From Streptococcus sp. F0442 (GTDB lineage: Bacteria > Bacillota > Bacilli > Lactobacillales > Streptococcaceae): a stretch of 64,000 nucleotides of DNA. A model generated the notes under the pieces. That model ran no database searches. It had not been told where the DNA came from and saw nothing but the letters and a program-made list of their open reading frames with translations. A program made the translations under genes and the position numbers. This document shows positions 12,594 through 40,424 of the stretch, one piece after another. Numbering within the stretch: position 1 is the first letter of the stretch; each line of letters opens with the position of its first letter. The stretch is taken from contig NZ_KB373314.1 of assembly GCF_000314795.2 (NCBI RefSeq), forward strand, positions 554,418 through 618,417, in the 5' to 3' direction.

Positions 12594-12601
12594 TCCAACA
12601 A

Positions 12602-12629
12602 AAAGCCCCGGGAAACCGGAGCTTTTTTT
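12602..12629 (+). terminator. Terminator of the DUF3042 gene
   Basis: Stem AAAGCCCCGG with CCGGAGCTTT around a GAAA loop, then seven or more T. Nearly the same hairpin occurs inverted at 12909-12944 on the far side of the structured element. Confidence 0.85.
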
Positions 12630-12751
12630 GCTGAAGAAAAAAGTCCATTTTGGAAAATTTTCTTTTACTGGTAGGTTTTGTCAAGATAAGCTAACACAAG
12701 TAATGCTAAAAGAATTAGAATGATATATGTTATGTTTATTCAAACATTACT

Positions 12752-12889
12752 GAAACTTTCCGCCGTGAGAAAAGTGCTAGAAACACGATAGTTTCTAGCA
12801 CTCGGGAGTTTTGAAACTTTAGGTTCAAAACTAAGTCATGGAACTTCTTCGAAGTTCGCTGACGTCCGTACTCACCTAAGGAAAGTTTC
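12752..12889 (+). repeat. Structured repeat element / candidate RNA, copy A
   Basis: A 138-bp element in the 357-bp gap between two convergent genes; the rest of that gap (12630-12751) is AT-rich with nothing I can name. Terminal stem GAAACTTTCC (12752-12761) pairs with GGAAAGTTTC (12880-12889). GTGAG (12765-12769) pairs with CTCAC (12871-12875). A 12-bp hairpin spans 12773-12802 and a 9-bp hairpin 12807-12832. A composite hairpin uses GTCA/TGAC and GAACTTC/GAAGTTC (12835-12863). The loop of the second hairpin holds TTAGG (12819-12823), complementary to CCTAA (12875-12879). Copy B at 20964-21101 aligns without gaps. Its strand and function are unknown; the plus strand is shown by convention. 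Confidence 0.75.
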
Positions 12890-12908
12890 TATGATGACGT
12901 TTGTCCTC

Positions 12909-12944
12909 AATCTAAAAGCTCCGGTTTCCCGGAGCTTTTAGATT
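12909..12944 (-). terminator. Long bidirectional hairpin; terminator of the rexBA-DUF4298 operon
   Basis: AATCTAAAAGCTCCGG (12909-12924) pairs with CCGGAGCTTTTAGATT (12929-12944) over 16 bp. It sits 7 bp after the DUF4298 stop. Read on the minus strand, its core and GAAA loop match the DUF3042 terminator at 12602-12629 almost exactly. Confidence 0.75.
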
Positions 12945-20846: not shown

Positions 20847-20876
20847 AAAGCTTGAGCGCTGGCTCAGGCTTTTTTT
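20847..20876 (+). terminator. Terminator of the glutathione peroxidase gene
   Basis: Stem AAAGCTTGAGC with GCTCAGGCTTT (one G-T pair) around GCTG, followed by seven T. The 24 nt from 20853 to 20876 recur without change at 21130-21153, on the other side of the structured element. Confidence 0.85.
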
Positions 20877-20963
20877 ATGTAGACAAACTATTTAGAAATA
20901 AGTTAAGAGATTCTGCAAAAAATAAAATGAGTTCTAATTTTTAAAATGAATCAAGAAAATACC

Positions 20964-21101
20964 AAAACTTTCCGCCGTGAGAAAAGTGCCTGAAACAATT
21001 AAGATTCAGGCACTCGGAATTATTGAGACCTTAGGCTCAATAATTAGTCATGGAACTTCGTAGAAGTTCGCTGACGTCCGTACTCACCTAAGGAAAGTTT
21101 T
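20964..21101 (+). repeat. Structured repeat element / candidate RNA, copy B
   Basis: Second copy of the 138-bp element, in the 314-bp gap between the convergent glutathione peroxidase and ABC exporter genes; 20877-20963 is AT-rich with no clear feature. AAAACTTTCC (20964-20973) pairs with GGAAAGTTTT (21092-21101), and GTGAG (20977-20981) with CTCAC (21083-21087). Hairpins span 20985-21014, 21018-21045 and 21047-21075. The second loop holds ACCTTAGG (21028-21035), complementary to CCTAAGG (21087-21093). By hand alignment it differs from copy A at about 22 of 138 positions, and most changes within stems keep pairing. Confidence 0.75.
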
Positions 21102-21126
21102 TAAGATGACTTTGTCTTCATTCTAT

Positions 21127-21153
21127 GCCTGAGCGCTGGCTCAGGCTTTTTTT
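21127..21153 (+). terminator. Second terminator hairpin after element B; also closes the ABC exporter operon
   Basis: GCCTGAGC (21127-21134) pairs with GCTCAGGC (21139-21146), followed by seven T. It is 2 bp from the stop codon of the leftward exporter gene. It is a direct duplicate of the terminator at 20847-20876. Confidence 0.8.
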
Positions 21154-40133: not shown

Positions 40134-40385
40134 GAAACAAAAAACACGCCCACACATAGCAAAAGCTATGTGAGGACGTGTCATCGCGGTGCCACCTCAC
40201 TTATGGGAAAAGGATAGTCTCTCCCCATATCTCTGTCTTGTCTAGCAACAAGTTGCACGATAAGGTGTGCCAACCGAATTTTTATTGTTTCAAATTCATC
40301 TCATCATTAGTCCAATTTCATAAACTGCCGCTACCCACTCTCAGCAACCGTGGGCTCTCTTCAAACTTTCATTTACTACTTTTCT
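40134..40385 (-). promoter_or_regulatory. T-box leader (tryptophan) of trpX
   Basis: On the minus strand the T-box core AGGTGGCACCGCG is at 40197-40185. The specifier region GAAATTGGAC gives codon TGG (40314-40312), Trp. A terminator hairpin with CACATAGC/GCTATGTG (about 40173-40151) inside ACACG/CGTGT arms ends in TTTTTT. The stem I bulge region GAGAGCCCACGG...GTGGG is also seen near 40360-40330. The leader should read through when tRNA-Trp is uncharged. Confidence 0.9.
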
Positions 40386-40395
40386 AATTTCTTAC

Positions 40396-40424
40396 ATTTT
40401 AAAGTTTTCTTTCAAAAATGTCAA
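40396..40424 (-). promoter_or_regulatory. Promoter of the Trp T-box / trpX transcript
   Basis: Minus-strand TTGACA (40424-40419) and TAAAAT (40401-40396) are exactly 17 bp apart, a near-consensus sigma-A promoter. Confidence 0.8.

Follow-up and report, generated by a model that had tools for sequence, protein, structure and literature searches.

A near genus-wide structured RNA carried by probable IS1182-family miniature elements in Streptococcus

Results

Two copies of a folded element lie in the window

The stretch of DNA analysed here, hereafter the window, comprises 64,000 nucleotides of contig NZ_KB373314.1 from Streptococcus sp. F0442 (assembly GCF_000314795.2, positions 554,418 to 618,417 of the forward strand) and contains two copies, A and B, of a folded core (Table 1), with a short gene upstream of copy A that by our reading is rpsU. 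As the initial annotation of this DNA had counted by hand, both cores are 138 nt long and align without gaps at 116 of 138 positions. The six two-sided pair changes that it listed are all present when checked by eye on sequence and fold: from A to B, G-C becomes A-T in the terminal stem, T-A becomes C-G and A-T becomes T-A in the first hairpin, and G-C becomes T-A, T-A becomes A-T and A-T becomes G-C in the second, and the unpaired segments that it named are identical in the two copies. Each copy is predicted to form a single multi-branched structure far stabler than its shuffled counterparts, with folding energies of -58.3 kcal/mol for A and -56.8 kcal/mol for B where shuffles average -30.2 and -27.2 (z = -8.30 and -8.77, respectively), and a 34-nt stretch of the core, sought with up to three mismatches, occurs twice in the window and in none of 100 shuffles.

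The repeated unit exceeds these 138 nt: at both copies it is flanked on either side by a hairpin, the two hairpins being duplicates, and no transposase reading frame is found between them among ORFs of at least 80 aa. Copy A has no recognisable 5' terminal inverted repeat and only its 3' end passes our end test, and the 5' end of copy B is partial, with outermost bases that are not conserved and 5 mismatches in 16 positions. Calling the flanking hairpins terminators is partly our own reading, as a terminator scan reports both hairpin copies at B, whereas at A the assignment was made by reading, a simple terminator scan giving no site at the upstream hairpin or elsewhere at that copy. The downstream loop of copy A is the reverse complement of the upstream one and is direct in the related loci L021-L023, so that the hairpin at copy A was probably flipped in place.

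Table 1. Coordinates of the two element copies in the window and of their parts
Feature	Position	Strand	Detail or evidence
Copy A, upstream hairpin copy, terminator by reading (target site duplication)	12601..12626	.	AAAAGCCCCGG-GAAA-CCGGAGCTTTT
Copy A, whole element, 287 bp	12627..12913	+	between two hairpin copies
Copy A, conserved folded core, 138 nt	12752..12889	+	sequence comparison, folding, covariation
P1, 5' strand	12752..12761	+	partner 12880-12889; folding and covariation
P3 hairpin	12773..12802	+	12773-12784 with 12791-12802; folding and covariation
P4 hairpin	12806..12833	+	8-nt loop, usually ACnnnAGG; folding and covariation
P5/P6 hairpin	12835..12863	+	12835-12838 with 12860-12863, 12841-12847 with 12851-12857
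Copy A, 3' end, IS1182-like terminal inverted repeat	12890..12913	+	3 mismatches to CAGATTGAAGACAAAG
Copy A, downstream hairpin copy	12914..12939	.	loop inverted (TTTC vs. GAAA)
Copy B, upstream terminator copy	20850..20876	.	terminator scan reports - strand
Copy B, whole element, 250 bp	20877..21126	+	bounded by terminator copies
Copy B, 5' terminal inverted repeat, inner part	20877..20888	+	ATGTAGACAAAC
Copy B, conserved folded core, 138 nt	20964..21101	+	sequence comparison, folding, covariation
Copy B, 3' end, IS1182-left-end-like inverted repeat	21102..21126	+	2 mismatches
Copy B, downstream terminator copy	21127..21153	.	terminator scan reports + strand

The element shares ends and target duplication with streptococcal IS1182

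Across the whole F0442 genome, 42 BLAST matches to the element correspond, on recounting, to 37 distinct places, with 31 near-complete copies. Flanking direct repeats exceed the 99th percentile of 930 mismatched pairs at 11 of these 31 (10 lie above the maximum), and the remaining 20 have no repeat above that percentile. By eye all 11 repeats are hairpins, the downstream one beginning 22-27 nt past the core, and in the duplicated hairpins the stems match between the two copies and the loops often differ. Where a duplication is detectable the element mostly measures 236 to 264 bp, with exceptions from 227 to 293, and ends resembling CAGAnTGnAGACAAA are common to duplication-bearing copies from several genomes. 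Leaving out 12 of the 31 copies for their short flanks, the 3' end is found within four mismatches in 11 of 19 copies scored (control 0) and the 5' end in 6 of 19 (control 1). Orientations were distributed as 15 (+,-), 10 (-,-), 5 (+,+) and 1 (-,+), a count in which the short gene upstream of copy A was missed by a length cut and from which we claim no bias. Some copies (L059, L060, L061, L065, L169 and L172) carry exchangeable modules, namely an alternative P6 module (CTGGATTGCTGAAATC...) or long P4 insertions, that recall the boxB modules of BOX repeats. A search of the F0442 genome for an autonomous parent by its end pattern, with up to three mismatches, returned the element ends and six other places, where by reading a transposase is absent.

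Matches to the IS1182-family transposase model (NCBIfam NF033551) were found in 189 of 279 genomes, above the cut-off in 82, and not once in the F0442 genome, whose enzyme must therefore be external or lost. We took the best match per genome at 30 IS1182 loci, of which four are cut by contig ends and one lacks clear ends, leaving 25 for scoring. These streptococcal insertion sequences end in CAGATTGAAGACAAAGTC on the side where the transposase starts, which resembles the 3' end of the short element, and in CAGAATGAAGACAAAC on the opposite side, which resembles its 5' end; both kinds of element also have one asymmetry in common, with ...ACAAAG(TC) on the former side and ...ACAAAC on the latter (13 loci). 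A direct repeat of 18-38 bp flanks 20 of the 25 insertions with identified ends (0.2% of 600 cross-pair controls) and the other five have no matching repeat; 19 of the 20 repeats are palindromic end to end, with at least 80% of outer pairs formed, and the twentieth is a hairpin offset by one base. Since the direct repeats are themselves palindromic hairpins, the duplication is the hairpin. The streptococcal IS1182 elements and the element described here are thus alike in their terminal inverted repeats, left/right asymmetry and duplication of a whole target hairpin, but the former are ~1.54 kb long, encode a transposase and mostly lack the core: among the 30 loci there are two strong core matches and a weak one, and 27 have none at E<=1. 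At one of these loci (L380) the core lies antisense between the left end of the IS1182 element and its transposase gene, and at another (L387) core and IS1182 are fused.

IS1272, an IS1182-family element of staphylococci, is reported to target stem-loops, terminators included, without sequence specificity and to delete or replace them with no duplication (PMC4923244, PMC5678879). In contrast, the streptococcal elements duplicate the stem-loop, an outcome that the legend to Fig. 13 of the latter paper gives as a hypothetical pathway b. With matching ends, a short and transposase-free body and a hairpin mode of target use all found, the copies are very probably non-autonomous transposons (MITEs) of the streptococcal IS1182 family, and we infer that its transposase moves them. 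The initial annotation, which dealt with the folded core, had not recognised that an IS1182-type MITE with duplicated flanking hairpins carries the structure as its cargo. IS1202, known for long target repeats (PMC10132070), was also considered as the mobiliser and rejected: its ends are TCAATCGAAAATGACAATGTCTT (L346, L347), and the repeat that is clear in one element, L346, is 28 bp long and non-palindromic. Movement by a group II intron or another RNA-based route was likewise rejected, as ends and repeats fit a DDE transposon, though a reverse transcriptase fragment adjoins the copies of one genome, G163.

The place of copy B is occupied in some close relatives and empty in others: of six examined, two have a single terminator without the element, three carry an element and one is rearranged. 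The elements of the three relatives differ from copy B in their 5' parts, which are shorter, and have no recognisable IS1182 ends, so that this presence/absence comparison concerns a place and not surely one insertion event, and it slightly lowers our confidence in the transposon identity. For copy A, where an empty site was likewise sought, the neighbouring gene was found in only one other of 41 genomes searched. In the wider set of loci from other genomes, flanking repeats exceed the foreign 99th percentile at 22 of 105 distinct places (23 of 114 loci before merging), at the element boundary in 20 and away from it in L034 and L119. Ends within four mismatches are present on the 3' side at 43 of 104 distinct places and on the 5' side at 23 of 104, with none in the 3'-end control windows of 113 loci before merging. 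No IS1182 ends are seen at 48 of 104 distinct places (52 of 113 before merging), though L085, L099 and L141, at least, still have a duplicated hairpin. The recount of distinct places leaves out L151, at a contig start, and merges sequence-identical places from different genomes (L136 with L044, L072 with L070); the pre-merge counts of 113 or 114 loci and the orientation counts for foreign loci include some places twice, plus L069 of the F0442 genome itself. Loci with IS1182 ends show no orientation bias, with 15 (+,+) and 20 (-,-).

The core is found in most Streptococcus genomes and at recurrent places

Our covariance model of the core, R1, has matches at E<=0.001 in 250 of 284 Streptococcus genomes and, in a 198-genome sample of the order, in 26 genomes belonging to 2 of 54 genera; copies per genome range from 1 to over 50. 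Among the matches listed, exact copies of the core occur in S. parasanguinis, S. australis, S. rubneri, S. xiaochunlingii and unnamed Streptococcus, and BLAST against phage and plasmid records finds no match.

Grouping loci by their flanks reveals recurrent fixed places, between grpE and dnaK in 10 genomes and before rmlB in nine, where the core follows rmlC and in two of the nine another gene lies between; further placements are groES|groEL, purD|purE and a site ahead of pth. One locus of each kind was used to check the gene names with NCBIfam, with rmlC scoring below the cut-off and the others above it. Often 18 to 54 nt separate the end of the core from a start codon, and at loci without IS1182 ends it is sense to co-directional neighbours in 29 cases versus 8 antisense; many of these loci are orthologous, representing about 9 versus 6 distinct gene contexts, so that the sense bias taken alone is weak.

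The core also occurs in other settings. In a genome of another Lactobacillales family (G396), 38 matches were found, and 21 copies in 20 regions (L395-L414) have other ends, often TAGAA[core]TTTCTA, and no hairpin repeats. One of these regions, L395, holds two copies in tandem. In genomes G162 and G163 the core adjoins an ISL3-like transposase; the same genomes contain an IS5-like element with the core antisense between its end and its transposase start (L158, L162-L166), and in G163, at several loci, truncated copies of the element abut a fragment of a group II intron reverse transcriptase (L156, L157, L159). The IS5-like, ISL3-like and group II intron calls were made from fragments that score below the family cut-offs. 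Several G162 contigs open with the same ~320 bases. Judged from these arrangements, the cargo RNA is not tied to IS1182.

The core corresponds to the SSRC8 RNA

The element had been described as unrecognised, which proved half right. The Rfam family RF02616 (SSRC8; model SSRC8_2) matches the two window copies with E values of 1.5e-13 and 1.5e-14, at 51.3 and 54.4 bits and thus below its gathering threshold of 72, and produced nine matches over all eight further loci scanned, none above 55.7 bits against the same threshold. Other Rfam families in this permissive scan remain far below their cut-offs, leaving RF02616 as the sole plausible match. SSRC8 and our element have the same core, and we read the Rfam consensus as hairpin, CAGAACGGAGACA-like end, core, ...GCAATCTG-like end and hairpin, i.e., as one member of this element; the SSRC8_2 model differs in its outer helices, which do not follow the fold found here. 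In S. pyogenes, SSRC8 was reported from Northern blotting with circular RACE mapping of its ends, and it is treated there as one sRNA gene whose transcript, by the coordinates of Table 4 of that study, measures at least 250 nt (PMC3675131).

Covariation supports selection on the fold

The structure is composed of P1-P2-(P3, a 3-bp stem, P4, P5/P6), with an internal loop in P5/P6 that is usually TG/GC. In an alignment of 29 copies from the F0442 genome, assembled without the partial copies L059, L061, L063, L064, L066 and L067 and the module-bearing L060 and L065, 97.2% of cells are paired and two-sided changes affect 23 of 51 pairs, in 97 cells versus 27.6 in shuffles; sliding the partner by one to three columns reduces pairing to 31-46%, and RNAalifold, not supplied with the structure, returns essentially the same fold. 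Homologues at 70 loci in other genomes, ranging in source from close relatives to distant species, were aligned by fitting to the model. Their 70 distinct rows have two-sided changes at 46 of 51 pairs, in 738 cells versus 190 in shuffles, and removal of a reverse-strand self-match leaves 69 with the same 46 pairs changed, 724 two-sided cells and 94.6% pairing. P1, whose arms lie ~120 nt apart, has two-sided changes at all 10 of its pairs, P3 has them at 9 of 12 pairs in the 29 own copies and at 12 of 12 in the 70 distinct foreign rows, and in G396 they affect 40 of 51 pairs.

Covariation is also present at fixed loci. The grpE|dnaK group (10 rows) has two-sided changes at 27 of 50 pairs, in 72 cells where the shuffle maximum is 31, and the rmlB group (6 rows) at 24 of 50, in 52 cells versus a shuffle maximum of 26; two further groups, of 4 and 5 rows, have little or moderate change, with 1 and 18 two-sided cells. 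Pair 124-136, misaligned in the A3 alignment, was left out of the fixed-locus analysis and of that of the upstream hairpin below. The fold is kept at places where no transposon end is recognisable, although some copies may have been inserted there independently. The proposal of selection on a fold, made initially from two copies, is strongly supported by the changes at 23 of 51 own and 46 of 51 foreign pairs together with those at fixed loci; the concern raised with it, that homologues might lack covariation, was examined and covariation was found.

Paired arms could in principle also be restored to perfection by hairpin-templated repair or by conversion between copies, with no selection on the fold at all, a process that would account both for two-sided changes that far outnumber G-U intermediates and for the duplicated hairpins, where stems are likewise kept matched while loops drift. 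We consider it very unlikely: the P1 arms have changed throughout despite the distance between them, unpaired motifs are conserved as well, and copies fixed at one place, above all those at grpE|dnaK, covary far beyond their shuffles.

Whether the fold is selected as RNA or as single-stranded DNA, both of which had been entertained initially, is a separate matter. Over the 69 rows, with the terminal pair left out, G-U accounts for 70 of 3399 cells (2.1%) and A-C for 41 (1.2%), and in the 29 own copies for 8 and 6 cells. G-U thus makes up ~2% of paired cells although two-sided changes number in the hundreds, a rarity that none of the explanations considered here fully covers. This scarcity seems odd for a fold acting only as RNA. 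The predominance of Watson-Crick pairs would suit a DNA device, a folded strand or cruciform used by the transposase for binding or end protection, with pairing selected in DNA, as would the reported insertion of IS1182-type elements at hairpins (PMC4923244, PMC5678879). Such a device is nevertheless unlikely, as most of the 30 IS1182 loci do without the core, compensatory changes accumulate at fixed loci that have no transposon ends, and G-U outnumbers A-C. A strand-specific feature argues against it too: in some copies P1 is preceded by a hairpin that has GA/AG steps and a GNA loop. A strict pattern for it occurs within 30 nt in 16 of 71 cases and elsewhere in the 270 nt upstream in none of the 71; both window copies lack it. 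This strand-specific hairpin, the published Northern signal of SSRC8 and the sense placement favour RNA, with the low G-U content speaking against it. A pseudoknot between loop and junction (TTAG with CTAA) could form but has no support from shuffling, at least four pairs being possible in 41 of 69 sequences versus 39.2 +/- 1.5 in shuffles and the junction being variable in G396.

Discussion

In light of the shared ends and the whole-hairpin duplications, we propose that a streptococcal IS1182-family transposase acts in trans to move a ~250-bp MITE; the enzyme would recognise the ~16-bp ends and join them at the feet of an extruded intrinsic-terminator hairpin. The whole hairpin would thereby be copied to both sides and termination would survive the insertion; the transcript of the carried RNA, a conserved multi-branched structure of the SSRC8 type whose fold is evident from covariation, could then end at the downstream terminator copy. 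An element that copies terminators would multiply without breaking them, which offers a simple explanation for its presence at 37 places in one genome. The identification as an IS1182 MITE family with a near genus-wide structured RNA as cargo, which we regard as well supported, brings together in one system an orphan sRNA of Rfam, a repeat of high copy number and a family of transposons, and it provides natural cases of the whole-stem-loop target duplication that figures as hypothetical in the IS1272 paper (PMC5678879).

The near genus-wide RNA, with its exceptional covariation, lies before dnaK, groEL and rmlB in several species. Many fixed copies lie in sense just before a start codon, which suggests action in cis, and our best guess for its role is that of a cis-acting mRNA stabiliser or processing element: outside recognisable transposons, the RNA kept between cistrons in sense may, as the likeliest of several uncertain options, protect the downstream mRNA at its 5' end or serve there in its processing. 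The published Northern blot of an SSRC8 transcript (PMC3675131), the presence of the core in most Streptococcus genomes and the 3' end that a downstream terminator copy supplies would fit an independent small-RNA gene of the SSRC8 type that acts in trans and is merely multiplied by the MITE. That role appears unlikely to us in view of a copy number that varies from 1 to over 50, of the sense copies fixed before start codons and of the most variable hairpins, which keep their pairing and not their sequence and are in this respect unlike a trans-acting seed. A simple consensus scan moreover detected nothing promoter-like on the sense strand of either window copy, a result that counts against our preferred reading as well; its one site lies at copy A, on the minus strand, and copy B has none (0.6 expected from shuffles at each). 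Extending the preferred cis-acting role, the core may be a portable structured RNA domain of streptococci and their relatives that travels in unrelated transposons (IS1182-type MITEs and an IS5-like element, as well as next to ISL3 and a group II intron) and that hosts have recruited repeatedly as a cis-acting 5' mRNA element setting the output of a second cistron, as in grpE-dnaK, groES-groEL and rmlC-rmlB, a broader view that is possible but still more doubtful.

Small RNAs derived from MITEs have a precedent in QMITE1 and QMITE2 of Coxiella, which are present in ~50 copies with short direct repeats (PMC5896051); the abstract of that report mentions no genus-wide covarying fold, and on that description the streptococcal element is set apart. 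In the titles and abstract openings surveyed, neither a streptococcal IS1182 MITE nor this repeat is described.

The element had also been compared with BOX of S. pneumoniae, a small mobile repeat that is interspersed in many copies per genome and whose internal modules vary (PMC3049150), as similar in layout and not in sequence. The comparison was fair in that both are small, mobile, many-copied and modular, yet they differ in sequence and fold. A divergent pneumococcal repeat of the BOX, RUP or SPRITE type, for which similar size, intergenic position and exchangeable internal modules might be cited, is extremely improbable: R1 matches none of nine BOX-bearing loci even at E<=10, the predicted BOX fold (8 loci) is different, and in ends and duplicated hairpins the element agrees with IS1182. 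A boxA string likewise has no match in the F0442 genome with two mismatches allowed. BOX-rich streptococcal genomes seem poor in the present element and genomes of the F0442 type show the reverse, an impression formed without statistics. The window's only Rfam match above threshold is a T-box leader (RF00230, 100 bits) at positions 40169-40401 on the minus strand.
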